From Carnobacterium maltaromaticum DSM 20342 (GTDB taxonomy: Bacteria > Bacillota > Bacilli > Lactobacillales > Carnobacteriaceae): 64,000 nt of DNA. Positions within the stretch are counted from its first letter, which is position 1. Each line of letters begins with the position of its first letter. Under the pieces are notes generated by a model. It worked only from the letters and a program-made list of their open reading frames with translations, made no database searches and was not told the origin of the DNA. Positions 89 to 36,360 of the stretch are shown piece after piece. Location: positions 62,001 through 126,000 of the forward strand of contig NZ_JQMX01000005.1 of the NCBI RefSeq assembly GCF_000744945.1. The letters run 5' to 3'. The translations under genes were made by a program, and so were the position numbers.

Positions 89-109
89 AAATTCAGCTCC
101 TTCCTATTT

Positions 110-763: not shown

Positions 764-1406
764 TAGGTCCTCTCCTTTTGTCCATAAATTTTAATATTTC
801 ATCTAATCTAACTGTTCTTATTTTAATAGGTAAACTTGCATAAACAGTTAAAATTTTTTCGTTTTTTAAAGTAGAGAAAAAATTTGATTTGTTTAAAGAA
901 GAAATATTTATTTCTTTTGGATTTTTATAAAAACCTACTCCCAAAAATTTACTGTAACTTTCTTTTTTCGTCCAAATTAATGTTCTAAAAATAGGCTTAA
1001 TATCAGATGAAAAATACGATTCAAGTTCTGATTTTGTCATAAATTCAGTAATAATTTCGTCTGTGACTTTAAATATTGACTCAATATCTATACCAATTTT
1101 ATTTTTGCATAGTGCAACTGCAATTGTATCTTCACAATGTGAAATGCTCACAAATATATTTTCTTTTTTTATAACCGGGCAACCTTTACTTTTAATAGTT
1201 ATGCAAGGAGTCCCAGAGATTCCATAACATGATATCAATGCATACTTAATTAGGACTGAAGCAATCATTGAATTAACTATATCTTTTTTATTCCTATACT
1301 TAAGACAATATCTCATTCTGCACTCACATATGTCTTGATGGAAATCTTTCACTCTTAAATCTGAATATTTTTCTACTTGGAGTATATATACTTCTGTATG
1401 TTCCAA
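756..1406 (-). CDS. 4'-phosphopantetheinyl transferase (Sfp superfamily)
   Basis: A 216-residue protein that should transfer the phosphopantetheine arm of CoA to the serine of a carrier domain. The family signature is visible: SISHCEDTIAVAL followed by IGIDIE (the metal-binding aspartate and glutamate) at about 100-115 and the WTKKESYSK motif at about 155. The start appears to be TTG, with AAGGGTGG about 11 bases upstream, and the gene ends inside the start of the HAD gene. Its natural partner is the NRPS encoded upstream in the same operon, whose T domain carries the GGNS serine. A PPTase this close to a single NRPS supports a self-contained pathway. Confidence 0.9.
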   Translation of the reverse strand: MEHTEVYILQVEKYSDLRVKDFHQDICECRMRYCLKYRNKKDIVNSMIASVLIKYALISCYGISGTPCITIKSKGCPVIKKENIFVSISHCEDTIAVALCKNKIGIDIESIFKVTDEIITEFMTKSELESYFSSDIKPIFRTLIWTKKESYSKFLGVGFYKNPKEINISSLNKSNFFSTLKNEKILTVYASLPIKIRTVRLDEILKFMDKRRGPNE

Positions 1407-1409
1407 AAA

Positions 1410-2408
1410 TTAATTTCCACCCTTAAATTTTATCGTAAAGTACTTTTCCATTTTAGAAAAACATTCAATTTTTTTTGCACGAAGAATAGCTCGTTCTTCA
1501 AATTTAGGATTAGCTGATTTAATCAAATTTTCATAGACTGATAAGGCTTGACACATATATAATTGATTAATAATAAACATTTTTTCATAATCATAACTAT
1601 TTAAAGGTATTTTCTCCGAATAATAATTTAAATAGAATAAAAATTCATCAAAATCGGGAATCCCTGTTTCAGAATTTGGAGCAGAATTTAAATAGAAACG
1701 CATAAGTTCCCAAATAGCGGGAACTCTCGAAACCTCAGTCATGTCAATAACTGCCGTAATTTCTTTATTTGATGTTAATAATTGAGTTATAGAATAATCA
1801 CCATGCCCATTTACCATAGTTAACTTATTTAAATCTAACTCTTCCGACTCTTCAATGAATGATAATCTATAATGTAAATCTTCAAGATATAATTTTTTAT
1901 TCTTCAATTGTTTAATTTTTTGTAGATTATATATGATTTTTTTTATTCTCCGTATATGATACTGCTTTTCATTAATTATTTCAATTGATTTTCTAGTATT
2001 TAATTTTAATTCAGATAATGCAACATGAATATTAGCTGCTAGGTCAATACCTTTTTTAACCAACCAACTTGGTGCAGAATTTTTCCTCCATGTTTCACCT
2101 TCTATAAAATTTTGAATATGGTAAGACTTTTCATTATTTAAAATATTAATAAATTCACCATTTTTATTTTCAATAAATGAACTAGTTTTTATACCTGCAT
2201 TATTTAACACCTGGCACGCATGAATTTCGAAACTACTTTCGTTATTTTCTGAATTAGTAATAAATGTTTTCATAAAGTATTTTTTAGAGTTAATAGTTAG
2301 TACGTAATTTGTATTCCAACCGATGTCATTTATTTCAATATTTTGTATATTATTGATGTCAAAGTTTTCTTTAACTCTATTTTCAATTAACCCAGATTCT
2401 ATTTCCAT
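1410..2408 (-). CDS. APH-family phosphotransferase (aminoglycoside/choline kinase-like)
   Basis: A 332-residue kinase-fold protein. The C-terminal half contains the Brenner-type motif NGHGDYSITQ at about residue 201-210, where most family members have HGDxxxxN, then VIDMTEVSRVPAIWELMRFY, which matches the DFD/DWE metal-binding segment with changed residues (DMTEVS). The N-terminal part around YFMKTF supplies a candidate ATP-binding lysine. The expected Asn of the catalytic loop is replaced by Gln, so activity is plausible but not certain. The ATG has GAGGTATT upstream, and a TATAAT-like -10 lies at 2426-2431 (complement). In a biosynthetic cluster such kinases often modify the product for self-protection or act as tailoring enzymes; the substrate is unknown. 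Confidence 0.75.
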   Translation of the reverse strand: MEIESGLIENRVKENFDINNIQNIEINDIGWNTNYVLTINSKKYFMKTFITNSENNESSFEIHACQVLNNAGIKTSSFIENKNGEFINILNNEKSYHIQNFIEGETWRKNSAPSWLVKKGIDLAANIHVALSELKLNTRKSIEIINEKQYHIRRIKKIIYNLQKIKQLKNKKLYLEDLHYRLSFIEESEELDLNKLTMVNGHGDYSITQLLTSNKEITAVIDMTEVSRVPAIWELMRFYLNSAPNSETGIPDFDEFLFYLNYYSEKIPLNSYDYEKMFIINQLYMCQALSVYENLIKSANPKFEERAILRAKKIECFSKMEKYFTIKFKGGN

Positions 2409-2472
2409 AATACCTCACCTTATCTATTATACATTCAGTTTTTGTTATCCGTTTAAATAACTCATAAAGAGA

Positions 2473-2519
2473 AATTAGGTAAAATACTATTCATCAATAC
2501 AATTAATATTCTACCTAAT
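2473..2519 (-). terminator. Weak stem-loop after the toroid-like gene
   Basis: AATTAGGTA and TACCTAATT form a 9-bp inverted repeat with a long AT-rich loop, overlapping the stop codon of the gene at 2511. There is no clear T-run, so it may only attenuate transcription between the NRPS-toroid pair and the downstream kinase-PPTase-HAD genes. Confidence 0.35.
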
Positions 2520-3452
2520 TGATAATTTTTTAATATCCATTTTTCTAATCAATTTCATCATATGAATTGAGGCTGTAAATTCAGACGTACGATCCAAGGA
2601 AAGTATATTATTTGAAGCATAATCTTCCCAGCACCCCAATTCCAATTGACTATCTTGCAAATATATCTCTACTTTTTCGCAATATTCTTGATAAATTGTA
2701 TTTTCTGTAATTATATACAATAAATTACTTGCTATTCCAAATTTTCCAATGTAATTGTTAAAGATTGCTTGGTCTCCTATACTAATTATAATGTTGTAAT
2801 ACTTTTCAGCATATTCAAGATATTTAATTTCATTTGTTTTTAAATATCCGATTGCTAAATTTATTACTGCCAAAGAAAATGCATAATATAATGGACTACC
2901 ATCATTATCATAAAAATCGTAAAGACGTGCAAATTTTTCTGGATACTTAGTAACATATTCATTATTTTTATATCGAATCATATAAAAGTGATTTTTAGTT
3001 TGATTTGTTACAAAATTACTAATTAAAAAATTCGAAGTTTTTTCGCCTATTAAAATATCATTGTTTAAGTAGGCACATATACCACTAAAGGCAGTACTTC
3101 TTGTTTCATATAAACTCTCTCCATTTTTACAAGAAAATCCTCCATTATCTTCGTTAAAATTTTGTAATATTTTATTGTAGGTAGTTTCTTTTAAATCATT
3201 TTTTGAAAAATAAAAATACAAAAATAACCAATAATTGTAATAATCATCACAATTTCTGTTTGTTGTAAAATCATCAGAGTAATAAAACAAGTCTCCTCTA
3301 TCTTTCATTTGATTTATCATACTTAATGATGCATCTTTAGCATTACTAAGATATAAAGCTAATGGTGATTTATACAAGGCTTCATATGGTAGTCTTTCAC
3401 TGTTTGCTAAATTTTCTTTTAACCAATTTACACTTCTTTTAGTAGTATTCAA
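2511..3452 (-). CDS. Alpha/alpha-toroid-like protein of the NRPS cluster, function unknown
   Basis: A 313-residue soluble protein that I do not recognise by name. It is almost wholly helical in character, with repeated blocks such as FNEDNGGFSCKNGESLYETR (about 98-117) and ELGCWEDYASNN (about 276) that resemble the GGF/GxW turns of terpene-cyclase, prenyltransferase or LanC-like alpha/alpha toroids. No DxDD cyclase motif and no clear zinc ligand set is visible, so an enzymatic class cannot be assigned. The start is TTG with AAAGGAG upstream, and the TTGA overlap with the NRPS stop (3449-3452) indicates coupled translation. It probably acts on, or in complex with, the NRPS product. That role is inference from context. 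Confidence 0.6.
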   Translation of the reverse strand: MNTTKRSVNWLKENLANSERLPYEALYKSPLALYLSNAKDASLSMINQMKDRGDLFYYSDDFTTNRNCDDYYNYWLFLYFYFSKNDLKETTYNKILQNFNEDNGGFSCKNGESLYETRSTAFSGICAYLNNDILIGEKTSNFLISNFVTNQTKNHFYMIRYKNNEYVTKYPEKFARLYDFYDNDGSPLYYAFSLAVINLAIGYLKTNEIKYLEYAEKYYNIIISIGDQAIFNNYIGKFGIASNLLYIITENTIYQEYCEKVEIYLQDSQLELGCWEDYASNNILSLDRTSEFTASIHMMKLIRKMDIKKLSIR

Positions 3453-6400
3453 TATATTTCTCCTTTATTTTCAAAATATTTTTCTACTTTTTTTATAACT
3501 TTCCCATTATTTTTAGGAAGTCTGATAATAAAACACAACTTACCATTATAGGTAAATGCTGTAATGAAATATCTATCATGAATCTTTAATTTTTTTTCTT
3601 TTTCATGTTGATATTCAGTTTCATCACAATTTCCTATGAAATTGAAACCAAAATCTAATTTATCATAAATTTCGACAATTTTTTCTGATAAATAGCCAGT
3701 TCCAAACGCTAAACTATCAACAAAAACATTATTATTATAGGTTTCATCGTAACATTTCTCAACTTTATTATTATTCCATTTACCTGATTTGTTTGCATCC
3801 AAAATTAATGGAAGTGAGATATGAAAATCTCCTATCGTATTATTCCATATATTATTTTGATGTATTCTAGAATTTCGAGTTACCCTAACTGCCAAATTAT
3901 TTCTCTGAAAAATAATTTCTCCTATATCTAGTGATACAGCTAATGCTTGATCTTCTATTGAATTTTCATTATTTATTGGATACTCAAAAAAATATTCTAC
4001 CAATTCCTCTTTAATCACAATTTTTGACTGGGGCAACAATTTATCCAGTTCTTTGTACCACTTACTCATTATGAATTCTTTAGATTTGCAAGAAGTCGAA
4101 TATTTTTTTTCTAATTCAATATACTTTTTATATCCAGAATCTGTAATATCATATTCCGCAGGTTTTTTGGAGTTTAAAATATTAAAAAATTTTAGTTTCA
4201 ATATATTTTTGCTAGCTCCATCAAATATTAAATGATTGAAACCAAATGATAGTTGATAATTTGTTTCATTCAGTTTAAAAACTATAATTGAAATAAGTGG
4301 TGAATCTAATTTGAACTTAAATTTATCAATCATTTTATTTTGAACATTACTAGTAAAATTCAGAATTACATTTTGTGAAGAAATATCAAAATTCGAAATA
4401 TCAATAATCTTAATATTTAAATGCTCTATTTCTTTAAAAATCGAATTGTAATAACTTAAACCATCAAATTTAATTGTGCTTCTTAATATCTCTTGATGAT
4501 TTAGTAATTTCATAATTGAAACAATAATGTTATCTTCATTAAGTGTAGTAAGATTAATTGAGAAAGGAATAAACGTAAATCTTTTTTTCTTAAAAAATTT
4601 ATTTTGTGGGCTGCTACACTCAAATTTTTTCACTTCATCTAGCTTCTTAAAACTTTTATTAAATTGATTTAGCTCTCGAATAATACTAAATCTAAGTTTT
4701 GAGTCTATTTCATCATCCGTTTCAATATGTGTTAATTTAAAATTATTACTTGATTTCATTATATACATTGGATAATTTTCAACAGGGACTTTACATTTAA
4801 GAAATTTTCTTACATCCTCCTCATCATTATTAGTAAAAAGAATAGTTTGTTCGTTTATTTTTTTCAGATCAAACAATTTTTCAGGAAAATTCATTCTTAA
4901 TAAATTCAAAATTTCTTCGGAAAAATTTTGAGTAGATGCTATTATGAGTTTTTCTAATCCTTCAATGGTTGCATCAGCTAAAAAATGATTTACAGAGAGT
5001 TGAGTTTGGTAAAGTTGATTAATTTGTTTAATCATTTTCACAGAATTAATTGAATTTCCTCCAAGCTCATAAAAAGAATCTTTTGTACCAAATGAATCAT
5101 AGCTTAATATCGTTTTCCAAACTTTATATATTTTTTCTTGTTTATCTGAAACGGGTTGTTTTAATTTCTGTATATTTCGAATTTTTTTATGAGACGGTAA
5201 TAATTTTTGATTTACTTTCCCATTATTTGTTAGAGGTATTTCTTCCATTAGGAAATAAAATGACGGTATCATATATTCTGGTAACTTAGTTTCTAGATAT
5301 TTACGTAAAACTTCACGACTATATAAGTTTTTATCTTCATATACAACATAGGCGCATATATATTGAGTCTTTTCATCTGTAACTACGTTTACGAACACAT
5401 CTTTGACAGCGGAATAATTGCGTAATAATGTAGCTATTTCTTCCAATTCAATTCGATACCCTCTAATCTTAACTTGTGTGTCAATTCGACCCAGGTAATC
5501 AATGTTACCATCCGACAACCATCTAGCTAAATCACCAGTACGATACATTAGTGATTTATTTCCAAATGTATTTAAATGAAATTTCTCTGAAGTTAATTTT
5601 GGACGATTATAATATCCTTTAGTAACTGATACTCCACTTACGCAAAGCTCACCTGGTATACCTGCAGGTAATGGCTTATCGCTACTGTCTAAAATGTATA
5701 CATCATTATTTGCTACAGGTCTACCAATTGGTACAGACCTATAATCTAATTCATCAGCTATCCAATAACTCGTAACTATACTCGCTTCAGTAGGACCATA
5801 CGCATTCACATACTTTAGCTTACCTCTAAATTTATCTACTAATTTAGTATTAGAATCACTTCCACCAGTAATTACGATTTCAAGAGTCTCATTTTGTTCA
5901 CTTAATTCTTGTGCCACAAAAACTGGAAGAAATGCAACTTGAATTTTTTTTGTAGTTAAATAATTATTTAACTTATCTGAATCAGTCATCATATTTTTAG
6001 GAATGATATGTAGCTGACCTCCACTTAGCAAGCACATCCATATCTCCCATACCGAAGCATCAAATGCAATACTTGCTGTTTGAGTCATTTTCATATTACT
6101 TCTCATGTTCATAGATTTATTAAAACTTAGAATTAAATTGATCACTCCAATATGTGGTACTATTACACCTTTTGGTCTTCCAGTTGTACCAGAGGTATAT
6201 ATCATATAAGCATCTAAATTTTTGGATTGATATTTAGTAATTGAATGATTTTTTTTGGTTGTAATTACTTCACTAATTTGTAAAAAATTGACATCATTTA
6301 TTTCATAGCAAAGACTATCTGTAAAAATAGTTTTAACATTACTGTCCTTAATAATGTACTTTACTCGTTCTTCAGGTAAAGAAGTATCAATTGGGAGGTA

Positions 6401-7348
6401 AGCTGCTCCAGCTTTCATAATTCCAATCATTACAGCTATCATTTCAATATTCTTGTCGCAATATATACCAATAATGCCGTTACCTAGTAAATCTTCACTA
6501 GTTAAATAATCAGCAACATTATTCGATTTTTCGAATAACTGTCCATATGTTAATGAATGTGCACCATATATAACAGCTACTTTTTCCATTCTTTTTTTAG
6601 CAATCTCATCAAATAAATTGTATAAATATTGATTATTGTGTACTTCATTTAGTTCATAATAATCATGGAATTCATTCAAGTTATTATTGCTACCAATATT
6701 TATGCTACTTAACTCTCCCTCTTGAAGCTTGTGAATATTTATAAATACTTTCATAAGTGTTTTAATAAAATCTTCAATAATTTTTTCTCGGTAAAGACCA
6801 CTTGAATAATTAACCTTAATTTGAAAAGAATTTTCTTTCTCTTTAATAAATACAAAAAAATAATAATCACTATTTGGTCTCATAACATCAAATTTGTCAA
6901 AAACTAACTTTGTCGCACTAATATTATTTTTCCCCATTTTTTTATAGTCTTTGAATTTAAATCCCTTATTTTCAGAAATAGAGGTTAAATATTTTTTTAT
7001 AAAATGTATATTTTCTTTGACACTTGTATTCTCAAAATCAAATGGAAACGGGAAAAATTCCCCATCATAATCTACATCAAACATCACACGGTTGTTAAGT
7101 GTATACTTAGTAAGTAAGAAAGCATAACTTAAAATAAAATTACTAATAATATCATTCTTTTTCATTTCTTCAATATTCATTTCTTTTTTTGTAAAGTATA
7201 ATGATAACTCCCCTCGCAAATCTTTCTTTTCTTCAGTATCAACAAATTCTGGTGTTATCATACTACTAACTAAACCTTCATTACAAAATTCATGCCAATA
7301 GTTATAGGCAAAAAAATAATTGTTACTTAATGAAAATTGTCTTTTCAT
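3449..7348 (-). CDS. Single-module nonribosomal peptide synthetase (partial C - A - T - C)
   Basis: 1299 residues from the ATG at 7346-7348, chosen because AAAGGAGG lies just upstream; an 18-codon upstream extension has no such site. Domains in order: a C-domain-like remnant without HHxxxDG (1-235), an adenylation domain (240-715) with YTSGTTGRPKG (384-394), NAYGPTE (515-521), YRTGD (602-606), KIRGYRIELEE (627-637) and NGKVNQK with the catalytic Lys711, a carrier domain with ELGGNS (Ser766), and a C-terminal condensation-like domain (about 890-1299) with NHLIFDG at 1038-1044, which keeps the second histidine. No thioesterase or reductase is present. Specificity positions read by eye are D-A-W-F-I-G-A-I-V-K, a hydrophobic, leucine-like code. 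A single C-terminal C domain could release the aminoacyl unit onto an amine or alcohol. Confidence 0.93.
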   Translation of the reverse strand: MKRQFSLSNNYFFAYNYWHEFCNEGLVSSMITPEFVDTEEKKDLRGELSLYFTKKEMNIEEMKKNDIISNFILSYAFLLTKYTLNNRVMFDVDYDGEFFPFPFDFENTSVKENIHFIKKYLTSISENKGFKFKDYKKMGKNNISATKLVFDKFDVMRPNSDYYFFVFIKEKENSFQIKVNYSSGLYREKIIEDFIKTLMKVFINIHKLQEGELSSINIGSNNNLNEFHDYYELNEVHNNQYLYNLFDEIAKKRMEKVAVIYGAHSLTYGQLFEKSNNVADYLTSEDLLGNGIIGIYCDKNIEMIAVMIGIMKAGAAYLPIDTSLPEERVKYIIKDSNVKTIFTDSLCYEINDVNFLQISEVITTKKNHSITKYQSKNLDAYMIYTSGTTGRPKGVIVPHIGVINLILSFNKSMNMRSNMKMTQTASIAFDASVWEIWMCLLSGGQLHIIPKNMMTDSDKLNNYLTTKKIQVAFLPVFVAQELSEQNETLEIVITGGSDSNTKLVDKFRGKLKYVNAYGPTEASIVTSYWIADELDYRSVPIGRPVANNDVYILDSSDKPLPAGIPGELCVSGVSVTKGYYNRPKLTSEKFHLNTFGNKSLMYRTGDLARWLSDGNIDYLGRIDTQVKIRGYRIELEEIATLLRNYSAVKDVFVNVVTDEKTQYICAYVVYEDKNLYSREVLRKYLETKLPEYMIPSFYFLMEEIPLTNNGKVNQKLLPSHKKIRNIQKLKQPVSDKQEKIYKVWKTILSYDSFGTKDSFYELGGNSINSVKMIKQINQLYQTQLSVNHFLADATIEGLEKLIIASTQNFSEEILNLLRMNFPEKLFDLKKINEQTILFTNNDEEDVRKFLKCKVPVENYPMYIMKSSNNFKLTHIETDDEIDSKLRFSIIRELNQFNKSFKKLDEVKKFECSSPQNKFFKKKRFTFIPFSINLTTLNEDNIIVSIMKLLNHQEILRSTIKFDGLSYYNSIFKEIEHLNIKIIDISNFDISSQNVILNFTSNVQNKMIDKFKFKLDSPLISIIVFKLNETNYQLSFGFNHLIFDGASKNILKLKFFNILNSKKPAEYDITDSGYKKYIELEKKYSTSCKSKEFIMSKWYKELDKLLPQSKIVIKEELVEYFFEYPINNENSIEDQALAVSLDIGEIIFQRNNLAVRVTRNSRIHQNNIWNNTIGDFHISLPLILDANKSGKWNNNKVEKCYDETYNNNVFVDSLAFGTGYLSEKIVEIYDKLDFGFNFIGNCDETEYQHEKEKKLKIHDRYFITAFTYNGKLCFIIRLPKNNGKVIKKVEKYFENKGEIY

Positions 7349-7402
7349 AATTACCTCCTTTATGTTATAATTTATTCTAATCAAATCATAACCAAAAACC
7401 AA

Positions 7403-7511
7403 TGTAAAAACTTTTTTTTCTAATCATAATCTTTAAATTAAAATAATTCAAGTATTTTTTGAGAATAAATTTTTTTTTTAATTCCAAAGAATATATTCTG
7501 GAGGGAAGAAC
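7403..7511. promoter_or_regulatory. Divergent intergenic region between the two arms of the NRPS cluster
   Basis: About 100 very AT-rich bases separate the minus-strand NRPS operon from the plus-strand ligase-exporter pair, so both promoters must lie here or just inside. I see no confident -35/-10 pair; the AT-richness gives too many weak matches to choose one. Confidence 0.4.
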
Positions 7512-8732
7512 ATGAAATTAATAGCAATTTTAAATCGCTATTCGGAGAACACGCTTGACTACAAAAAAGCATTGAACAACATAGAGGCTGATTTTTTATT
7601 CATAACTAGAACAAAACATAAAGATATTTTTAAAGACTATTTTTCTAATCGTAAAACATTCGATACTTTTCACGAAAATAAAAATATAGAAAATTTTTTA
7701 TCGGAAATAAACTTAAAAAATAAAATTGATTCAATTGTTGTTTCTCATGAATTTGACATTGAAAAGGCTGCCCATATTCGTGAGAAATTAAAAATTAAAG
7801 GTCAATCATTAAACAGTGCTGTTTGTTTTAGAGACAAAAATGTAATGAAAGAAAAATTGAAAGATATAGTTAATATTCCAAAATTTTCTCAAATAAATAA
7901 CTTTAGTGAATTAGAAAATTTTAAAAAAGAGCATGGCTATCCTTTTATAGTTAAACCTATTGACGGAGCTGGTTCTGTTGGATTTTTTCAATTTCATAAC
8001 AACAATGATTGGGAAGAGTATAGGCTACACAAGCATAACTATCCATTGATTGCTGAAGAATTTATATTTGGCGAAATGTATCACCTTGATGGAATTTTTT
8101 CTAATGGTGAAATAAAAGCTTTTAGTAGTGGAATATATGTAAATGGATGTTTGGCTTTTTTTGAAAACAAATACAATGGTTCTGTTCTAATAAGCGAGAA
8201 TAGTCTAATGTATGCTCGTCTAAAAACCGAAATTACAAAGGTTTTACAAGCATTAGAAACACCAAATCATGCTATTTCATTCCATGGTGAATTTTTTCAC
8301 ACGGCTGATGATAAATTAATATTTTGTGAAGTAGGATCACGTGTCGGAGGAGGAAAAATTAATGAAGTTTTTGAATTAAAATATGGAATTAACTTACTTA
8401 ATGAATCTATACGTGCTCAATGTGATCCTGAATATGACAACACTAAACTAAATATAACAACCTCTAAATACGAGTATGGATGGATGCTTGTTCCTCCCAA
8501 AAAAGCAATTTTGGTTTCAATTAATGAAAATATTCCTTTTGACTGGATAGTAAAAATTTCTTTTAGAAAAAGTAAAATCGGTGAATTTCTTGATGGTGGT
8601 AATTCTAGTGTATCTGAGTATGTTTCAGTCATAATAAAAGGTAAAGATTCAGAAGAAGTTAAAAAAAGAATGGAAATCACTGATAAATGGTTAAACGATA
8701 ATGTTACATGGGATTATAAAGGAGAAGAATAA
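7512..8732 (+). CDS. ATP-grasp domain ligase
   Basis: A 406-residue ATP-grasp enzyme of the carboxylate-amine ligase type, expected to join an acyl-phosphate intermediate to an amine with ATP. The central lysine-bearing strand and glycine loop appear in YPFIVKPIDGAGSVGF (about 145-160), the adenine-contacting strand in LIAEEFIFGEMYHLDG (about 179-194), and the metal-binding C-terminal segment in FHGEFFHTADDKLIFCEVGSRVGGG (two parts, about 259-283). The ATG has GGAGGG 8 bases upstream. It is followed within 2 bases by an MFS transporter, so the pair is co-transcribed. In small NRPS clusters such ligases add an amino acid to the NRPS product or make a dipeptide precursor; which applies here is open. 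Confidence 0.85.
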   Translation: MKLIAILNRYSENTLDYKKALNNIEADFLFITRTKHKDIFKDYFSNRKTFDTFHENKNIENFLSEINLKNKIDSIVVSHEFDIEKAAHIREKLKIKGQSLNSAVCFRDKNVMKEKLKDIVNIPKFSQINNFSELENFKKEHGYPFIVKPIDGAGSVGFFQFHNNNDWEEYRLHKHNYPLIAEEFIFGEMYHLDGIFSNGEIKAFSSGIYVNGCLAFFENKYNGSVLISENSLMYARLKTEITKVLQALETPNHAISFHGEFFHTADDKLIFCEVGSRVGGGKINEVFELKYGINLLNESIRAQCDPEYDNTKLNITTSKYEYGWMLVPPKKAILVSINENIPFDWIVKISFRKSKIGEFLDGGNSSVSEYVSVIIKGKDSEEVKKRMEITDKWLNDNVTWDYKGEE

Positions 8733-8733
8733 A

Positions 8734-9927
8734 ATGTTTAATTACCTTTCTAGCACTATAAAATTACGATTACTTATGAATTTCATTAGTAAAGCTACAT
8801 CATCAATGCTACTCCCATTTGTCACAATCTTATATGCAAAAGAATTTGGAATTGTAATTGCTGGTACATTAATTAGTATTACAAGTTTTTTCCAAATTGG
8901 ATTTAGTATTTATGGTGGTCAACTAACAGAAAAATTTGGCCGAATCCCTCTCATGAAATGGGGTGAGTGTATTAAACTATTTTGCTTTTTAGTACTTTTA
9001 TTTTATTCCAATACTTGGATTGTGTTTTTTGTGATTACCATCATTTCAGCAGCTCAAGGATTTATTAATCCTGCTATTGATTCCATGCTAATAGATGAAA
9101 GTAATGACGAAATAAAAGCAAAAGTATTGTCTCTAAACAATTGGATTTATAATACTTCATACTTAATAGGTGCAATGATAGGTGGTTGGTTATTTCAAAA
9201 AAATTTCGTTGTAATTGTTATTTTACTTATACTAAGTAGTCTTTTTGTACTTTGGAATATATTTGCTAATATGAATGAAACACATATTGTACTCCAATCT
9301 AAAAAACTTAAATATGGATTTTTTAGTTCTTATTCAGAAGTTATAACTAACAAAAAATTTGTGCTATTTTCTATAGGAATGATGTTCTTTCTTTTTTTAC
9401 AAAGAACCTTAACTAATTACATTGCTGTTAATTTTAAAAGTACATTAATTCCTTTTACTCAAATAATGTTAAACCAAGAACAATTATTATCTGTTGTCTT
9501 AACAATTAATACTATTTTGGTAATAGCTTTTTTACCAATAGTAACTTTTAAATTTAATATATTAAAAACAAGATTTTTTTTGATACTTTCAATGATTCTA
9601 ATCCCAATTGGTTTTTTCGTTCTTTCATATTCAAATACATTTTCACATATTATCATTGGAACAATATTATTTACTGCCGGAGAGTTAGTTTTCACTCCAA
9701 GTATGCAAGCTGTATTTATTTCAACCATCGATGAAGATAACAAAGGGCCTTATAATGCTATACTAAGCACCTTTCAGTCAATTTCAAAAATTTTATCTTC
9801 AATTTTTCTATCAGTATCTGTTATATTCACACAATTCGGTAATGCCTCACTTCTTTTTATAGTTGGTTTTTTAGGTATATTATTAATTCTTCTAGTAAGT
9901 GACAAACCAAATAAATTAATTACCTAA
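8734..9927 (+). CDS. MFS transporter, probable exporter of the cluster product
   Basis: A 397-residue integral membrane protein with about 12 predicted hydrophobic segments. The start chosen is the ATG at 8734, with AAGGAGAAG upstream and one base after the ligase stop codon; an in-frame ATG 33 bases earlier lies inside the ligase and lacks a site. The first inter-helix loop has the MFS motif A-like GQLTEKFGRIPLMKWGE (about 62-78), typical of drug/H+ antiporters. As the last gene of the plus-strand arm it most likely exports the NRPS-derived molecule, giving self-resistance. A sugar or nutrient permease is less likely because of the motif and context. Confidence 0.85.
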   Translation: MFNYLSSTIKLRLLMNFISKATSSMLLPFVTILYAKEFGIVIAGTLISITSFFQIGFSIYGGQLTEKFGRIPLMKWGECIKLFCFLVLLFYSNTWIVFFVITIISAAQGFINPAIDSMLIDESNDEIKAKVLSLNNWIYNTSYLIGAMIGGWLFQKNFVVIVILLILSSLFVLWNIFANMNETHIVLQSKKLKYGFFSSYSEVITNKKFVLFSIGMMFFLFLQRTLTNYIAVNFKSTLIPFTQIMLNQEQLLSVVLTINTILVIAFLPIVTFKFNILKTRFFLILSMILIPIGFFVLSYSNTFSHIIIGTILFTAGELVFTPSMQAVFISTIDEDNKGPYNAILSTFQSISKILSSIFLSVSVIFTQFGNASLLFIVGFLGILLILLVSDKPNKLIT

Positions 9928-9966
9928 CATTTAAATAATATATTTATTTTACAAGTTAAACAGCTA

Positions 9967-10000
9967 GAGTAGTTACCAACTTATAAGTTGGTAGCTACTC
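9967..10000 (+). terminator. Rho-independent terminator after the MFS gene
   Basis: A 16-bp stem (GAGTAGTTACCAACTT paired with AAGTTGGTAGCTACTC, one G-T wobble) with a 2-base loop, followed by CTTTTGTTTTT. It closes the ligase-transporter transcript. Confidence 0.9.
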
Positions 10001-10288
10001 CTTTTGTTTTTACTAGTAATTTTATTATGGCATGATTTAATATTGGCACGGAGACCTACATAAATCACTTTGACTAAATAAACCAGTAGAGTACACCATA
10101 ATGGCTGATTTTATTTCCCAAGATAAATTTTTCTAATGACCACCAATACTACAGAAAGTTCTAAAAATAGAGTTATCAATATGATTATTTCCAATTTTTA
10201 AATTAATAACAAATCGAAGATTCCAACAATTTTTCTTCTTTATCATTGGACATTTTTGCCTATTAATTTGATTCAAGTTTGCTTAGTT
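10001..10288. other. Intergenic region without a recognisable gene
   Basis: Nearly 300 bases with stops in all frames. I looked for transposase or peptide remnants on both strands and found none that I can name. It separates the biosynthetic cluster from the helicase-regulator block and may be a decayed joint between two acquired segments. Confidence 0.4.
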
Positions 10289-12844
10289 TTAGCTATTGTA
10301 CGGCTTTGATTCTTCACTATAAGTTTTAAGTGAATCAATGCTTAAATCATGAAGCTCCAACAATTGACTTATCTTGTTAATTGAAATATCTGCAAAATCA
10401 GTATTTTTAAATTCTTTTGTAAAATCACTTACATTTTTAACTAACTTATTTAACATTTTTTCTCTTATTATATTTACATCTTCATTAAACCCACCTGCTG
10501 GATCAAAATATTTTGTTCCTACTATCATAAAGTTTGTGTGTATACTATTCTTATATTCTCGATTAAACCACGAAATTGAATTATTCATTTGACCCGTTTC
10601 ATCTTTATAAATATATTTTCTTGTTGATTTAACCATATTTTTACATTCAAACACAAAAAACTCATTTTCTCTTACTGCCCAAACATTATCTGGACCCTTT
10701 TTATAACTTTTGTCCGGGCGTTGAGTTTCAAACCCTAATAAAATCCCCAAAATGTCAAAACTACTCTCAAAGGCTTCCGAATTTTTACCCATTCTAAGTT
10801 TATCTGAAATTTCATGCATTAGTAGCTCTAGTTCATTATAAGTTCTCAGTTCACTAATATATTTTTTTATATTTTCCGCTCTATGAGAATTTTCAATACT
10901 TCCAATTTTAGAAACCTCTATATTACTAGGATATAGTAAAAGATAATTATTAATGCGATGAGCAATTGTCTGTACCTCTATAGCTTTTGATTTTGAAATT
11001 TCATAACAATATTTTGCTTTTTTTTGTAAATACCATCCTTTTTCATAATCGTCGATCACATATTTATCTATAAATGGCTGAATTTTTTCTATTGCTTTTT
11101 GCTTCTCACCATTCATAAAAAGGTTATCAATTTTCCTTTCCTCTTCAAGTTTCTCTACAGCACTTATATCAATTATATTTTCAGATTGATCATCCATTCG
11201 TTCTTTATAAAATAATTTCCAACCTTCATCTCTTTTTAATAATTGGTTTATTAAACTTGAAAACACAGTATATGGTGCTTTACCTTTTTCAATATCTTCT
11301 TTTGCAAAATCAACCAGCTCTTTGCCTATTAATATTTGTTTTTTAGTAAATGTAGAGAAATATTTTTGATTATTATTAGTTTGAACAAACCTAGTCAACT
11401 CCGTTCCAATTAAAACAATTACTGAAAAATCTTTTTCACCACGTACACTACGGCCCATTCCTTGTTCAATTTTTTGTGCTTTTTTTCTATTTAACTGTTC
11501 AGAATTTGAAATCACTGAAGATAAATAGCGGTCTTCCAAAGATTCAAAAGATGGGATTGAATCAATCACCAGTATTCTACATAAATTATCAGGCAAATCA
11601 ATACCGTCATACCTATTAGAAAAAACTACTGTCTGTGGTTTTTCACTAGCCTCAAGATATTTTACACTCTCATTTATATCTCCAGTACTAACGATTTTAG
11701 ATCCATATTTGTTCCAATCTTGTGTCAAAGAAAAACTCGGTGTTAGTGCAATTCTTCCAATCAAACTAGCATTACCACCCCACGGTTGTCCAAAATAGTG
11801 AACCATTTCAGTACGGTTTAACGTTTTTTCAATTAAAGAAGGAATAAGAACCATTTTTTCACCAGACCATTCTTCTTTATCTAATTTTAGTGGTTCTAAC
11901 AAATTACTTGCTGGTATTCCCAACTCTTTAATTAAAATTGAATCTTCACTAGCCGTAGCAGACATATATATTTTAGATTTTGCATTATAAAAACTACCAA
12001 ATATTTTCAACGGCATCTGATATGGAATGATTTCAACTTTTTCTGCGGATATATAACAATCAGTGTATTTTAAGCTGTCTTTTATTATTGGCCAAGCATA
12101 CTTTATTTCATTTTCATTTGAGTAAGCAGCAATAATTTTAGTTATTGCATCAATATTGTCATGCCAAGCCCAATAAGGAACTGGTAACATTGGTACTGTT
12201 GAGGAATCATTATTTTTAAATTTAACTAATTCTTCAAACGTTCCCAATCCTTGAAGTTTAATATCTTCTTTTAGCAGCTCAAATATTTCTGTGTACGCAC
12301 CCTTTGTTTTCTCTTTAGAAAAATTCATTCTTGTTGCCTGTCTAATTGATTCAATACAAGCATGCGCATCATCTATGACAATTCCCTCCACATCTATAGA
12401 TTTTGCTCCTAATCCAAATTTTGAAAACCCATGAAACATGTATTGAACTGTAGTAATTAGTATGGCTTCTGAATTTGTAAATTCTGGAGGAATTGCCCTA
12501 TCTGATCCCACAGAGCAAACTTTTAATCCAAATTGCTTCGCTTGGGCTATAGTTTGATCAACTAAAAATGAGTTGGGACAAATATACATTACTGGTCTAT
12601 TCTCCTTATTTAAAATTGATTGTAAAATTAATAAACCAACTAAAGTTTTTCCTTGACCTGTGTTCATTTTGAGTATTGTGTGAGCTTTATTACTGAATTT
12701 TTCAAACCATTTATTTAAAATCTCTGTCTGGACATCACGTAACGGTCCTTTTTCAGCAAATCTATCTAAAGTATCATAGATTTCAACTGGATCTATCTCT
12801 TTTTCTTTTTTTATCATAGTTATTTTATTTCGAAAATCTACCAT
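10289..12844 (-). CDS. DEAD/DEAH-type superfamily 2 helicase with C-terminal PD-(D/E)xK-like nuclease domain
   Basis: An 851-residue protein. The N-terminal half is an SF2 helicase: MNTGQGKT (Walker A, about 60-67), VIDDAHAC (motif II, DDAH, about 156), MSATASED (motif III, about 292), and EQGMGRSVRGEKDFSVIVL (motif VI, about 460). The middle is helical. Near residue 690-715, GPDNVWAVRENEFFVFECKN fits the D-x(n)-ExK pattern of restriction-endonuclease-like folds. Helicase-nuclease fusions of this type are typical of defence or DNA-repair islands. It starts 53 bases after the stop of an RRNPP-type regulator on the same strand, so the two may form one transcript. It could instead be a plasmid maintenance helicase; no known system name fits with confidence. 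Confidence 0.75.
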   Translation of the reverse strand: MVDFRNKITMIKKEKEIDPVEIYDTLDRFAEKGPLRDVQTEILNKWFEKFSNKAHTILKMNTGQGKTLVGLLILQSILNKENRPVMYICPNSFLVDQTIAQAKQFGLKVCSVGSDRAIPPEFTNSEAILITTVQYMFHGFSKFGLGAKSIDVEGIVIDDAHACIESIRQATRMNFSKEKTKGAYTEIFELLKEDIKLQGLGTFEELVKFKNNDSSTVPMLPVPYWAWHDNIDAITKIIAAYSNENEIKYAWPIIKDSLKYTDCYISAEKVEIIPYQMPLKIFGSFYNAKSKIYMSATASEDSILIKELGIPASNLLEPLKLDKEEWSGEKMVLIPSLIEKTLNRTEMVHYFGQPWGGNASLIGRIALTPSFSLTQDWNKYGSKIVSTGDINESVKYLEASEKPQTVVFSNRYDGIDLPDNLCRILVIDSIPSFESLEDRYLSSVISNSEQLNRKKAQKIEQGMGRSVRGEKDFSVIVLIGTELTRFVQTNNNQKYFSTFTKKQILIGKELVDFAKEDIEKGKAPYTVFSSLINQLLKRDEGWKLFYKERMDDQSENIIDISAVEKLEEERKIDNLFMNGEKQKAIEKIQPFIDKYVIDDYEKGWYLQKKAKYCYEISKSKAIEVQTIAHRINNYLLLYPSNIEVSKIGSIENSHRAENIKKYISELRTYNELELLMHEISDKLRMGKNSEAFESSFDILGILLGFETQRPDKSYKKGPDNVWAVRENEFFVFECKNMVKSTRKYIYKDETGQMNNSISWFNREYKNSIHTNFMIVGTKYFDPAGGFNEDVNIIREKMLNKLVKNVSDFTKEFKNTDFADISINKISQLLELHDLSIDSLKTYSEESKPYNS

Positions 12845-12897
12845 TTTAAACTCACTCCATTTCCATTTTTATTACACAATCTATTTTGATTGCTTAT

Positions 12898-13788
12898 TTA
12901 ACAATAATTGTATCTATTTAATTTAAATTCAGCCATATCCATTGCTATTGCTTCAGTAACGATTTTATTTTTGTTTAATATAGCAACTGATGCTGCATGG
13001 AAGTAAAATTCTTCTGCTTCTTTCATTTTTCCTAGTTTTGCCAGGTTAAATGCTTTTTCATAAAACAATCGATCTAACTCGAAATTTGTATGATTCATTT
13101 GTTGTAGCGCAATACCTAAATTACAGAGATCAACCGCCTTCTCATAATGTTCAATTTGAGAATAAAATTTTGCACTATTAAAATAAACACTAGTAATATC
13201 AAAACTATCCCTTATTTCCCCTAGATTTTCTATTAATTCTTCTAACTGACTAAGCGCTTTTTCATAATAGGTCAAGGCTTTATCTAAATCAGAATTAAGT
13301 ACGTACGCAATTCCAACACCATTCGTTGCTAAAACATCAATCAACTCTACATTTGTTTCTGATTTATCAGACAATACCAAATTAAAGTAGTAGTGAGCTT
13401 CAGTAAAATTTTTATTGGCAATTAACTCCGTCAGTCCTAAGTAATAGTGATACTTCTTAATTTCATAGCTTTTTTCTAATTTTTTTATATCTATTTCTTT
13501 TACTAATAAATCATGCGCCTCTTTATGTTTATACGTTGCACATAATTGTTTTACCTGGTTAAAGATAGCTGCATTGTAGTTAGAATTCATTAACGTGTAA
13601 TCAGATATTTCACTAAATTCTATATCAAGTCTGTTCGCAATGGCTATTAATATAGGCAAATTCGGCATCCCCGACTTGTTCTCTAAATTGCTGATAGTAG
13701 CTTGTGTACAAATCCCTTCAGCTAACTCACCTTGTTTGAGTCCTTTTGCTAAACGCTTTTCTTTAATGACTTCCCCTAATGTTTTCAT
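12898..13788 (-). CDS. PlcR/Rgg-like (RRNPP) transcriptional regulator, HTH plus TPR
   Basis: A 296-residue regulator. Residues 1-65 are a Cro/C1-type helix-turn-helix (GLKQGELAEGICTQATISNL). The rest is built of helical TPR-like repeats (for example LDKALTYYEKALSQLEEL and HYEKAVDLCNLGIALQQM), the arrangement of RRNPP regulators that bind short peptides inside the cell. The ATG has GAGGGAG upstream. A 25-residue peptide gene reads away from it 108 bases upstream, which is where peptide partners of such regulators usually sit. The helicase-nuclease gene follows it on the same strand, so it may control that gene. The actual ligand and regulon are not shown by the sequence. Confidence 0.85.
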   Translation of the reverse strand: MKTLGEVIKEKRLAKGLKQGELAEGICTQATISNLENKSGMPNLPILIAIANRLDIEFSEISDYTLMNSNYNAAIFNQVKQLCATYKHKEAHDLLVKEIDIKKLEKSYEIKKYHYYLGLTELIANKNFTEAHYYFNLVLSDKSETNVELIDVLATNGVGIAYVLNSDLDKALTYYEKALSQLEELIENLGEIRDSFDITSVYFNSAKFYSQIEHYEKAVDLCNLGIALQQMNHTNFELDRLFYEKAFNLAKLGKMKEAEEFYFHAASVAILNKNKIVTEAIAMDMAEFKLNRYNYC

Positions 13789-13822
13789 CGTTAAGCTCCC
13801 TCTCTTCTAAGATTAAATAGTA

Positions 13823-13851
13823 TTGATTAATTGTACCCTAACCGTTATGAT
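13823..13851 (+). promoter_or_regulatory. Promoter of the 25-residue peptide gene
   Basis: TTGATT, a 17-base spacer and TATGAT on the plus strand place a transcription start near 13858, about 40 bases before the peptide ATG. The same interval must hold the promoter of the divergent regulator. Confidence 0.6.
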
Positions 13852-13896
13852 TAATATAGTAATAAATAGTTATCTTTCAAAAAGGAGGCCACTTGC

Positions 13897-13974
13897 ATGA
13901 CCATTGACGATATGATCAACCTATCTTCAGATTTAACAGGTTTTTCTCCATATGGAAATATTCCTTATGGATAA
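13897..13974 (+). CDS. 25-residue peptide, candidate signalling partner of the RRNPP regulator
   Basis: A short gene with an excellent ribosome binding site (AAAGGAGG, 8 bases before ATG) and its own promoter. The product starts MTIDDMINLSS and ends FSPYGNIPYG. It has no hydrophobic secretion signal, unlike SHP, PapR or Phr precursors, so export would need a dedicated peptide transporter, or it may act in the cell that makes it. Position and orientation relative to the PlcR/Rgg-like gene are the main reasons for the call. The aromatic and glycine-rich C-terminus would be the natural mature signal. Alternative: a leader peptide without signalling function. Confidence 0.6.
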   Translation: MTIDDMINLSSDLTGFSPYGNIPYG

Positions 13975-14028: not shown

Positions 14029-14061
14029 AAACCCGTCTCTCATTATAAAAGTGACGGGTTT
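14029..14061. terminator. Bidirectional terminator between peptide gene and T7SS effector operon
   Basis: AAACCCGTC and GACGGGTTT form a 9-bp stem around a 15-base loop, with T-rich sequence on both sides, serving the plus-strand peptide transcript and the minus-strand effector operon. Confidence 0.75.
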
Positions 14062-14074: not shown

Positions 14075-14461
14075 TCATATCCAATTTGAAGATTTAAATG
14101 ATTGTTTAAATGTTTTCATATCTTCTACGGAATCCGCTACATTAGTTACTAGAGAGCCCATATCTGTCTGCAATTTCTTACCAGCATGACTCGTAAAAGC
14201 ATCTTTTAAATTTGTTTTAGCTTGTGAAACTGAAAGCCCACTGTCCTGGCACCATTCATGAGTGAGTAAGCTTTGTTGTTCTGGTACCGCACGCTGCAGT
14301 TCAGCTTTTAATTGTTCTCTCAATGCTTGCTTCTGATATCCTGCTTTGGCCCAATCAAGAACGTCTTCTAACGAATGACGAACGGCATCCGAAACTTCTT
14401 CTCCCAAATTTTCTAGTTCCTTTTGCACTTTATTCAATTCATAAAAAAAATCAATACTCAT
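14075..14461 (-). CDS. Small helical protein, candidate partner of the lipase effector
   Basis: 128 residues from the ATG at 14461, preceded by GGAGG 8 bases upstream; a start five codons earlier lacks a site. It begins 1 base after the effector stop codon, so the two are made together. The protein is helical and polar, with no signal peptide or membrane segment (for example LNKVQKELENLGEEVSDAV at 7-25). Small helical proteins next to type VII secretion toxins are usually targeting partners or chaperones of the WXG100/Lap kind. I cannot see a clear WxG, so this role is inferred from context only. Confidence 0.55.
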   Translation of the reverse strand: MSIDFFYELNKVQKELENLGEEVSDAVRHSLEDVLDWAKAGYQKQALREQLKAELQRAVPEQQSLLTHEWCQDSGLSVSQAKTNLKDAFTSHAGKKLQTDMGSLVTNVADSVEDMKTFKQSFKSSNWI

Positions 14462-14462
14462 G

Positions 14463-15644
14463 TTAAGATCCTCCAAGAATAGTACTTAAATTTTTGGCCA
14501 TGTTTTTATCTGCAGTATCAAATTGAGTGGCCGCTACTCCAATTTTATCTTTTAGGTGGGAAAGACTTTTCTTTGTTTTTTCCAAATCATCAATCAGACT
14601 CTCTTTCATTTTACGATCATAAAAATAGTACGATCTGCCTTTATAGGATTGTGCCAGTTCTTCAAAAATTTCTTCTACATCGTTACTTGTTAAATGGCTA
14701 AAACTTCCAACCCCCATTTTATCCACATAAGTAGAATAAATTGTCTTAATTTCTTTATCTAAATTATCCGTTACTGTTGAAATCATTTCTTGTGTAAAAT
14801 ACAATTTTTGTATAGCAGAATCAAAATGATCTAGCTGATTCAGTATCTCTTCAGGATCAACTCGGACCATAATAGAACCATCACCGTTAAACATTCCTGC
14901 AAAACTTCCACCCATATGCCCTACAACCCACAAATCGCTTTTCGCACTCTTTGCCATGATTCTTGAGCCAATTATTTCCCCAGCTGGTAGATAACCTACT
15001 GGATCATTTTTATGACGATAATCACGAATCATGTCATCATATTTTCCGTCACGAACGGCTTGTTGTAATTCTGGAGGTAATAATCTAAACGCTCTTGCTG
15101 CTGCAAACGTAGTCGCTTTAGCATCCATTATTACTGCCATGTATTGAGCGAGTGCCCCACCTAAACTATGACCAGTAAAACTATAATTTTGTGGGTTATA
15201 CTCTTGAATCGATTGACGTACAAAGGCATCGTATTGGATAAATTGATTCTGGGCATTAACTTGCTCGATTTCTGCTTTTTTTAACTCTTCTGGGCTCACA
15301 GAGCTACTCCCTAATACAATTCCATTGGTTTTAACCCAATCATTGTAGCCATCCTCGCCCATTTCGCTTCCACGAGAAACGAACACCATATTTTCAGGGG
15401 CTTTAATCTTTCCTGAGCATAAAGCTTTATATTCATCTAAAGATATAACTGCCATAGCTTGAAGCCCACTATCGGTGCTAATTGAATTAATTGTAACCCA
15501 CTTTGACCCATCATTTGCATTTATAGTTTCCAGTTTCTTCAATTCGTCAATAGAAAGTTTTGTAACGCTGTTTATGTTTAGCCATTTGTCATCATACACT
15601 GAATCCGCTAATTTCCAATATTGTTCATCTGTTAGTTGTGTCAT
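14463..15644 (-). CDS. Lipase-domain toxin, probable type VII secretion effector with lipase at the N-terminal side
   Basis: 393 residues with no signal peptide. An alpha/beta-hydrolase class-3 lipase core holds FTGHSLGGALAQY (GxSxG, serine about residue 160), a later aspartate in RHKNDPVGYL (about 212) and a histidine in VVGHMGG (about 244), a plausible Ser-Asp-His triad. The C-terminal 120 residues are a helical, LXG-like tail ending in a coiled segment. This lipase-first, helical-tail-last order matches the TslA-type T7SS lipase described in staphylococci. AGGAGG lies before the ATG. No EssC/EsxA machinery is in the window, so secretion would depend on the chromosome. Confidence 0.75.
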   Translation of the reverse strand: MTQLTDEQYWKLADSVYDDKWLNINSVTKLSIDELKKLETINANDGSKWVTINSISTDSGLQAMAVISLDEYKALCSGKIKAPENMVFVSRGSEMGEDGYNDWVKTNGIVLGSSSVSPEELKKAEIEQVNAQNQFIQYDAFVRQSIQEYNPQNYSFTGHSLGGALAQYMAVIMDAKATTFAAARAFRLLPPELQQAVRDGKYDDMIRDYRHKNDPVGYLPAGEIIGSRIMAKSAKSDLWVVGHMGGSFAGMFNGDGSIMVRVDPEEILNQLDHFDSAIQKLYFTQEMISTVTDNLDKEIKTIYSTYVDKMGVGSFSHLTSNDVEEIFEELAQSYKGRSYYFYDRKMKESLIDDLEKTKKSLSHLKDKIGVAATQFDTADKNMAKNLSTILGGS

Positions 15645-16729: not shown

Positions 16730-17696
16730 TTTATCCCTCTTTTTCTTGCTTACTTTACTTTAAAGTACCTTAATACGCCTTTAAAAGCAACTCATATATT
16801 AAAATGGACTAAACAATAAAAACAGAGTAATGAAATCTCATCTAACTTCTTAAACTCAAGAAGTTATTCTTTTCTCCCTATATAAAAAAAAGTCATAATA
16901 TTATTAAACTCTTCTATTTCTTTTTCGACACTATTTATCCTACCCTTTTTATTATAAAACGGTAATGCACTCTCAAAATCAAGATATTGAATACCTCCAT
17001 GCCTAATATATTCATTTACTTTAGATACCTTATCTAAACAACATTCATACATATTAGACTGTAACATTTCAACAAACTCTGTCCCATATTCTTTTTCCAT
17101 TTCGTTGAAAGCTTTTTTTGATATTGTATTTAGTTGTAGCAATTTCTCTTTTTTTTCTTCTACCCACTCCATTGCAACATCTAAATTATAACATTTAAGT
17201 TTTGCTAGAACTAATTTATCTATTACAGCAATATTTGTTGAGTCTTTCTTATATAGAAAGCTTAAAACTTTTTCTCTAATGACTGGAGGAAGAAAAGAAA
17301 ATGAATACATAACATCATTTCTTGTGCCAAACTCATAAGCTTCAAAATAATTTATTAGCAAAAAAGCATAAATGTCAAATAATTTATCTGCTGCTTTATC
17401 AAAATCATGTTTAGTTACCTGTGTAGGATTTTGAGTATGTGTGTTATTGTTTCCATAAGCGGTTATAACCTTTAAAGCATCTAATAAATATTCGGAATTA
17501 CTAATCTTAGATAATTGTTCTTTGATTTTTTTATCTCCTAAAGTTAAACGTTTACCAGGAGAGTAATTTAATATTTTTCGAATAACTATTTCTGTATATC
17601 TTCTTATGATACTTTGGATATATACTAATAAAGTAGACAGTATTTTTAATGGTATACTGTTTATAAGTAGACACTAAAACGAAAGGAATGATTCAA

Positions 17697-17978
17697 ATGT
17701 CCAATTACAAAAAATATGATGAAGAATTTAAGAAAAGCCTTGTTAATCTTTACCATGGAGGTAAAACACAAACTTCGTTGTGTAAAGACTATGGCGTTTC
17801 CTTTACAGCGTTATCCCGCTGGGTAAAACAATATTCTGAAGTTCAAATTGAAGATGGTTCTATCCTTACTGCTAAACAGATTAAAGACTTACAGAAGAAA
17901 AATGCTTTATTAGAAGAGGAAAACCTCATCTTAAAAAAAGCGATTGCCATCTTCACGCCACACTCAAACAACGATTAG
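17697..17978 (+). CDS. IS3-family transposase OrfA, copy 1
   Basis: 93 residues from the ATG at 17697 (AAAGGA 9 bases upstream; an ATG nine bases earlier overlaps that site). It has an HTH of the IS3 OrfA type (TSLCKDYGVSFTALSRWVKQ) and a leucine-zipper-like tail (LQKKNALLEEENLILKKA). An A7G run at 17933-17940 in the last codons is a typical slippery site for -1 frameshifting that would produce the OrfAB transposase. Confidence 0.92.
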   Translation: MSNYKKYDEEFKKSLVNLYHGGKTQTSLCKDYGVSFTALSRWVKQYSEVQIEDGSILTAKQIKDLQKKNALLEEENLILKKAIAIFTPHSNND

Positions 17979-18838
17979 ATGCGGTTCATTTATTACGTTT
18001 TGATCATTCTATTGTGCGCCTTTGTAGAGTCTTAAACGTAAATAGAAGTACCTATTATAAACACTTTGACCCAACTCCTGCTCCTAGAACTGTTGAAAAT
18101 CAACAGCTTCGACAAACCATTTTTTCTATCTATATGGATTCTAAAAAACGATTAGGTGCTGCGAAAATAAAAGTTGTTCTTGAGCGTGATTTTGGAATTT
18201 TCATTAGTGTTGGGCGAGTGTACCGATTAATGAAATCAATGGATTTGCCAAAAATGTCTACAGCTAAGCCGAAATTTTTATATGCGAAACCAAAGGTTTC
18301 TTTAGCTTACTCAAATCACTTAAACCAACAATTCAATCCGACTGAACCGAATCGAGTTTGGACGAGCGATATTTCTTACATTCCTGTTAATAAAGGGTTT
18401 GTTTATCTCTGTGTCATTTTAGATTTATTTTCCAGGAAAATTATAGGATGGCGCGTTCGTCCAACTATGGAAGCTTCTTTAGTCCTTGAGACACTTGAAA
18501 CAGCTGTGAATCAAAGAAATCCCAAAGAGCCTGTTCTATTCCATACAGATCGTGGAAGCCAATACTGTGCGACTAGTGTTCGTCAATTTTTAGACACACA
18601 TAACCTCGTTCCATCTTATTCCAAAGCAGCTTACCCATGGGATAATGCCGTAAACGAGTCTTTTTTTAAATATATGAAAAAAGAAGAACTGAACCGCAGA
18701 ACATTTAGAACAATCCAAGAAGTTGAACAATCTTCATTTGAATATATAGAGGGTTTTTACAATTCAAAACGCCCCCATTCAGCAAACAATATGATGACCC
18801 CGAATGAAAAAGAAAAAATCTATTTTGGGTCTATCTAA
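17940..18838 (+). CDS. IS3-family transposase OrfB (DDE integrase core), copy 1
   Basis: The OrfB frame is open from the A7G slippery site and is probably made as an OrfAB fusion; the first ATG-like start in frame is only at about 18014. The catalytic triad is visible in VWTSDISYIP (D), FHTDRGSQY (D) and DNAVNESFFKYMKKEE (E, with the usual K seven residues later). An HTH_21-type segment (KKRLGAAKIKVVLERDFG) precedes the core. It cuts and joins the IS ends. Confidence 0.92.
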
Positions 18839-36276: not shown

Positions 36277-36360
36277 TTTGGATATATACTAATAAAGTAG
36301 ACAGTATTTTTAATGGTATACTGTTTATAAGTAGACACTAAAACGAAAGGAATGATTCAA

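Follow-up and report, generated by a model that had tools for sequence, protein, structure and literature searches.

Does a short peptide set the level of a phage-defence nuclease in Carnobacterium maltaromaticum DSM 20342? The question is raised by three neighbouring genes in a stretch of 64,000 nucleotides of this genome (contig NZ_JQMX01000005.1, positions 62,001 to 126,000), which is called here the window. They are a 25-codon peptide gene, a divergent regulator of the RRNPP type and a helicase-nuclease gene, hna, 53 nt behind the regulator and on the same strand; their order and coordinates were found as first described when the sequence and its open reading frames (ORFs) were checked. 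A sequence-only reading of the window had taken them for a possible module of phage defence under quorum control. By comparison with related loci, the conserved unit is the peptide-receptor pair and not the triple. The reading that we favour, with some reserve, is that a portable switch, made of a leaderless peptide and a PlcR-like receptor, took hna into the receptor operon as its second gene.

The window is part of a contig of 129,453 bases (C5) in a genome of 3.88 Mb. Two C. maltaromaticum plasmid records carry a regulator 99-100% identical to the 337-residue one at 57523-58536, which points to C5 being a plasmid, and the locus very likely sits on one.

The Effector

The helicase-nuclease had been suspected to belong to an anti-phage family, and homology identifies it as Hna, a protein known to defend against phages by abortive infection as a system of a single gene. 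The 851-residue product gave a full-length match of 940 bits to PADLOC PDC-S28, and its residues 1-840 align to residues 1-834 of Sinorhizobium meliloti Hna (PDB 10uj, 9yhn, and 9ykj) with an E value of 7.6e-205; 10UJ and 9YKJ are described as the Hna monomer and dimer (PMC13381803). Pfam detected ResIII, DEAD, and Helicase_C_2. The nuclease residues are all kept, P718, D719, E733, and K735 being the counterparts of P712, D713, E727, and K729 of S. meliloti Hna. Residues P34, R36, and Q39 are also kept, and the dimer-interface loop T30, D31, P34 of the S. meliloti protein reads A30, E31, P34 in that of the window.

In S. meliloti, activation of Hna by the phage single-stranded DNA-binding protein and abortive infection have been reported (PMC13381803), and an hna expression about doubled is reported to suffice for a large change in resistance (PMC12445080), so that regulating hna at the level of transcription would matter. 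A homologue of hna (40.5%) was also seen at 5001-7535 of L042, on plasmid pMRC01 of Lactococcus lactis; the reference title of this record names a phage-resistance-encoding plasmid, and the homologue could be, or contribute to, that resistance.

The Peptide and Its Receptor

The regulator, which had been called RRNPP-like from its sequence, has HTH_3 and TPR matches in Pfam and appears PlcR-like over its full length. A profile built from 21 relatives matched PlcR with positions 2-286 covered (E 2e-26), and the same profile reached Rgg2 (4yv6) only over 2-101 and PrgX only over 2-93, that is, at the HTH end. PlcR was the only full-length RRNPP receptor match among the 29 PDB sequences listed, and a search with the single sequence also found it (E 1.7e-12). 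The model of the regulator is all-helical, with a mean predicted local distance difference test score of 88.4. At E 0.01 the 21 family members matched no Rgg model.

The family is large and paralogous in the own genome, with 18 matches at E ≤1e-30. Each of the three other genomes of the genus has it as well, and it is present in one of 15 genomes from the other genera of the family (E 1e-40), in 20 named Enterococcus loci, and in 28 of 396 genomes of the order (E 1e-35). The regulator was matched in 113 plasmid records, four of which were fetched. No match was found in viral contigs, and the six in phage records, at 22-37% identity, come from Enterococcus and Listeria entries that carry no annotation. 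The window receptor, in a tree rooted at its midpoint, groups with that of L019, from another genome of the genus (100/94), and L001, from contig C1 of the own genome, joins them next (100/100); receptors with a peptide occur in both halves of the tree.

Comparison also shows that the 25-codon gene, to which the sequence-only reading had given a strong site and promoter, is real and cognate-looking. We searched beside 71 family regulators (ORFs of at least 150 amino acids, E 1e-12, in loci fetched from longer match lists) for a divergent ORF of 12-45 amino acids with a Shine-Dalgarno match of at least 4 nt and a C-terminal [FYRQNL]G[NDST]. It was present beside 33 of them, against 1 of 71 when the opposite strand of the upstream region was searched and 0 and 1 of 71 downstream, and both control hits are peptides of neighbouring regulators (L006, L040). 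When the upstream DNA was shuffled 200 times in blocks of two bases, the mean was 0.2 and the maximum 2. The 71 regulators are not independent, because there are near-copies among them; the motif was first spotted in the own genome (8/19), and the loci fetched afterwards gave 25/52. The peptide of L055, and perhaps that of L029, escaped the search pattern, and L057-L059 carry no peptide of this type.

The peptides are 16-27 residues long and usually end in the core [IV][ST][PT][YF]G[ND]x[PG][HYFW][VG], which in the window peptide is FSPYGNIPYG, the likely signal. The similarity of the receptors correlates with that of the peptide cores (r 0.61 for 33 pairs, with none of 5000 permutations as high; r 0.41 for the 20 pairs within the genus), a correlation that shared descent alone could produce. 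The codon changes of two close peptide pairs are two synonymous and one non-synonymous each, and in many more distant pairs non-synonymous changes are commoner.

Other regulator loci were also observed. Another pair of the family, L009, is located at C5:56935-57798, about 4 kb outside the window, with a TTG-start peptide ending in TPFGNVPYV, and it has near relatives, L037 and L038, on two named plasmids of C. maltaromaticum. The Enterococcus faecalis plasmid pMP8-1 (L040) has two divergent family regulators with a peptide ending in SPYGNLPHV between them and a replication initiator gene adjoining, and L049 has eight regulator genes of the family in tandem (1983-9495), with a divergent peptide of the searched type only at the first. 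The 337-residue regulator mentioned above (57523-58536, plus strand) is PrgX-like (phmmer to PrgX, E 4e-13) and forms a second candidate pair on C5: divergent from it, a 24-codon ORF (MNGTVVEAVDVEILISTLGMVASG) without K or R stands behind GGAAGGAGG at 57164-57238 on the minus strand.

The Operator and the Proposed Switch

When their intergenic regions are aligned, the nearest relatives share TTGATTAATNNTAC-N9-TATNATTA. In the window the proposed operator is an imperfect inverted repeat with 11-nt arms and an 8-nt spacer (Table 1), which spans the peptide promoter from -35 to -10 and extends to the -10 of the promoter candidate on the minus strand. Its position over promoters points to repression or to a choice between promoters. 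A promoter-like site was found for the peptide and is kept in the nearest relatives; a scan of the window gave 30 sites at its level of 9/12 against 22.2 (sd 4.1) in shuffles, so that the score alone is little proof. The regulator promoter candidate is one of five sites that share the top score in the window (10/12).

Perfect operator sites in the own genome are six, all of them in receptor/peptide gaps, although the site of L008 lies 12 nt inside an ORF that was called mechanically and given a longer start than its relatives have. The next best is one site at two mismatches, followed by 29 at three; the reversed pattern, used as control, gave 13 sites at up to three mismatches in the own genome and none at up to one mismatch in the four genomes of the genus. 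The three other genomes have two perfect sites, both at pairs (L019, L022) and both in G003, with none in G001 or G002. Among the 71 upstream regions the operator is found in 10, and the peptide is present in all 10. The fact that perfect sites are all at pairs favours a local circuit.

It is likely that this switch controls hna, considering the 53-nt gap between regulator and hna, where no terminator was predicted (fold z -0.15) and the promoter scan saw no promoter-like site, the operator lying over both proposed promoters, and the lack of perfect operators outside pairs. The peptide would be produced from its own promoter, and its C-terminal 7-10 residues would bind to the receptor's TPR domain, whether the peptide had first been released and taken up again or had stayed in the cytoplasm. 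The receptor would occupy the palindrome, which lies across the peptide promoter and reaches the receptor's own, and peptide binding would alter this occupancy, so that the levels of peptide, receptor, and a co-transcribed hna would shift together. In this way the switch would set the amount of Hna on guard.

Since abortive infection is worthwhile only if kin are close by, its control by a population signal is expected in theory, and a benefit of this kind may exist here. A wider proposal, which we put forward tentatively and below even chances, is that leaderless, K/R-poor peptides with a [YF]G[ND]x[PG][HYFW] core and their PlcR-like receptors act in Carnobacterium and Enterococcus as parallel private channels, portable cassettes with their own operators, one of which gates an abortive-infection nuclease by the number of nearby plasmid carriers. 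The candidate channels in the own genome are eight pairs.

Alternative Explanations

The absence of a leader means that the peptide may act inside the producing cell. A switch that controls hna without quorum sensing, with the unexported peptide as a timer or expression-noise device in its own cell, is a possible explanation that we judge to have the poorer chances. The window peptide and its relatives have no Sec-type leader, as the sequence-only reading had noted for the former. By composition, one of the 33 peptides, not that of the window, has K or R among its first eight residues and three have either of them anywhere, and D or E is found within the first eight in 29 of 33; the basic-then-hydrophobic leaders of the Sec and PptAB type are different (PMC10075063). 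Nevertheless, leaderless export has been reported for peptides of the RopB class (PMC10518010), and the known relatives of the receptor sense a re-imported peptide, both of which leave room for an exported signal that might report cell density or the spread of the plasmid.

Somewhat less probable, and in our opinion unlikely, is that hna is a passive neighbour, present by chance and read from its own promoter or by weak read-through, while the pair switches itself or other genes. This explanation draws on the observations that weigh against a switch controlling hna. The regulator was found at only one of the 16 hna loci inspected, that of the window; the other 15, part of them with flanks of about 1.4 kb or less, are without it, and the expected conservation of the neighbourhood therefore failed for the triple and held for the pair. 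Of the 213 plasmid records that hna matches, a minority is among the loci inspected. Considering the genomes, hna is in 1 of 4 of the genus (the own only) and in at least 2 of 396 of the order and at least 7 of 398 of the class, the last two counts being lower bounds since the best two candidates per genome were scored; a scan of genome contigs with hna as a single protein gave none. Behind 17 of the 33 paired receptors a co-directional ORF of at least 70 amino acids stands within 260 nt, behind the other 16 there is none, and only in four, the window included, is it within 60 nt, which argues that cargo control is not the rule. Also against our reading, 38 of the 71 receptors are without a matching peptide, two of the eight pairs of the own genome (L011, L013) have no perfect operator, the Enterococcus pairs have none either and show another conserved spacer, and hna could have a weak promoter of its own.

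What follows the receptor elsewhere is variable. In L007 it is a gene of a DNA-alkylation-repair family, at 16 nt, and in eight of eight Enterococcus loci (L046, L048, and L050-L055), whose peptides end in GNTGHV, a gene of the lytic polysaccharide monooxygenase (LPMO) type at 110-264 nt, an assignment made by Pfam in one locus and by the common string HGYVSSP in the other seven. The constancy of this LPMO gene argues that the slot behind the receptor can persist over speciation. L001 and L019 have the pair in common but not the fetched flanks, so the pair behaves as a cassette, which also fits a passive hna. Taking together the hna loci without regulator and the other genes, or none, behind the pairs, the conserved unit is the peptide-receptor pair, and the linkage to hna is, within the loci inspected and in collections from which genomes very near the source may be missing, a private combination. 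Against mere neighbourhood are the common strand, the short gap with neither predicted terminator nor promoter-like site, and the location of every perfect operator of the genome at a pair; a switch that took in hna is for us the better account.

We regard it as improbable that the main targets of the receptor are in trans, such as in the small cluster at 110-9927 that resembles a nonribosomal peptide synthetase (NRPS). All four three-mismatch operator matches of the window are in this cluster (1563, 3309, 3732, and 7421), where 0.20 were expected for the whole window and 0.08 in 1-10000 with local composition, and none of 100 shuffles reached four. These matches, above shuffles, give some room for targets in trans and count against our reading insofar as it would be a purely local circuit, and such a circuit was given up. 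Receptors with five TPRs are, moreover, mostly tied to the regulation of biosynthetic clusters (PMC12700828). However, three of the matches are inside genes and only one (7421-7451) is before the NRPS-like gene, none has both palindrome arms, and the 29 three-mismatch matches genome-wide stand beside the 13 of the reversed control; since the pattern includes promoter hexamers, AT-rich promoters match it in part.

Finally, that the peptide is a chance ORF or has another role, toxic or as a leader, is highly improbable: the frame is short and synonymous substitutions do not clearly prevail in it, but the Shine-Dalgarno site, C-terminal core, and position are kept across two bacterial families, with controls near zero.

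Other Features of the Window

The coordinates of the locus are collected in Table 1. The NRPS-like cluster, convergent with hna, has adenylation, carrier, and condensation domains together with ATP-grasp and major facilitator superfamily genes; a phosphopantetheinyl-transferase-like gene was recognised by eye only. A strong hairpin is located between this cluster and hna, at about 9967-10001. On the other side of the locus, 14075-15644 encodes a Lipase_3-like protein, with a WXG100-like stretch below threshold, and a small partner gene, possibly a secreted effector pair. Two IS3-like insertion sequences with identical proteins are found at 17688-18838 and 36352-37502.

Table 1: Features of the peptide-receptor-hna locus, in window coordinates.
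Feature	Position	Strand	Basis
Peptide gene, 25 codons, ATG start, leaderless	13897-13974	+	ORF; core shared by relatives; aligned peptides
Shine-Dalgarno AAGGAGG, 8 nt 5' of the peptide ATG	13882-13888	+	Sequence; similar sites in relatives
Peptide promoter, TTGATT-17-TATGAT, promoter-like	13823-13851	+	9/12 matches; kept in aligned intergenic regions of nearest relatives
Proposed operator, imperfect inverted repeat ATTAATTGTAC-8-TTATGATTAAT, 30 bp	13826-13855		Pattern searches in four genomes
Proposed regulator(-hna) promoter, TTGAAA-16-TATATT, -10 touching operator	13853-13880	-	10/12; inferred
PlcR-like receptor-regulator, 296 residues, N-terminal HTH, C-terminal TPR helices	12898-13788	-	Domain and structure-database matches; model
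Regulator-hna gap, 53 nt, with GGAGTGAG as ribosome site for hna	12845-12897	-	Sequence; terminator and promoter scan; folding
hna, 851 residues, SF2 helicase and PD-(D/E)XK nuclease, predicted abortive-infection effector	10289-12844	-	PADLOC; PDB matches
Walker A motif GQGKT, Hna residues 63-67	12644-12658	-	Sequence
Nuclease motif P718, D719, E733, K735	10640-10693	-	Alignment to S. meliloti Hna
Terminator-like hairpin behind the peptide gene, AAACCCGTC...GACGGGTTT, then ATTTT	14029-14061	+	Folding z -2.27; missed by terminator scan

Comparison with Known Systems

Hna and receptors of the PlcR type are known, and in the literature searched we found no description of a leaderless PlcR-type switch with these peptides. 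A text search for six of the cores, or for Carnobacterium together with RRNPP, retrieved no published report of the peptide family, supplements not being covered. Carnobacterium is absent from the main text of the four RRNPP papers compared, and one of them names the family Carnobacteriaceae for the RopB class. At its strict level RRNPP_detector demands that the peptide either carry a secretion signal or be SHP-like (PMC10075063), and its loose candidate list may include these pairs.

If our reading is true, a chemical signal may set the arming of a cell against phages. Leaderless peptides on PlcR-type receptors would, separately, widen the known rules for pheromone genes. Its known effector, defined operator pattern, and short synthetic ligand make the locus a candidate that can be tested.

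Among the closest known systems is PlcR-PapR, an RRNPPA system of the Bacillus cereus group, with which the pair shares an HTH and TPR receptor with a full-length profile match, a neighbouring peptide gene, and aromatic residues in the C-terminal core (ADLPFEF in PapR7). The window system differs in that its peptide gene is divergent, lacks a Sec-type leader, and encodes another core, and in that several parallel pairs exist in one genome. The PlcR box also differs from the palindrome of the window.

Leaderless signals are known for receptors of the RopB type, and RopB-LCP shares with the present locus a signal candidate without secretion leader and a palindrome in the peptide promoter (PMC10518010). 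Here, in contrast, the receptor is PlcR-like and the peptides have 16-27 residues, instead of mostly 8-10, with a GN/GD core. Membership in the RopB leaderless class was considered and rejected, on account of these peptide lengths and of a receptor that is not Rgg/RopB-like, its Rgg2 match being confined to the HTH end. With the Alo systems of Paenibacillus polymyxa (PMC7425212) the pairs have in common that many are found in parallel in one genome; those receptors belong to another subfamily, and secretion and processing of the Alo pro-peptides have been reported. As to the effector, the window Hna resembles that of S. meliloti in its full-length homology, Walker A motif, PD-(D/E)XK residues, and extra-chromosomal location, and it differs in positions 30 and 31 of the dimer loop and in standing 53 nt behind a peptide-receptor pair.

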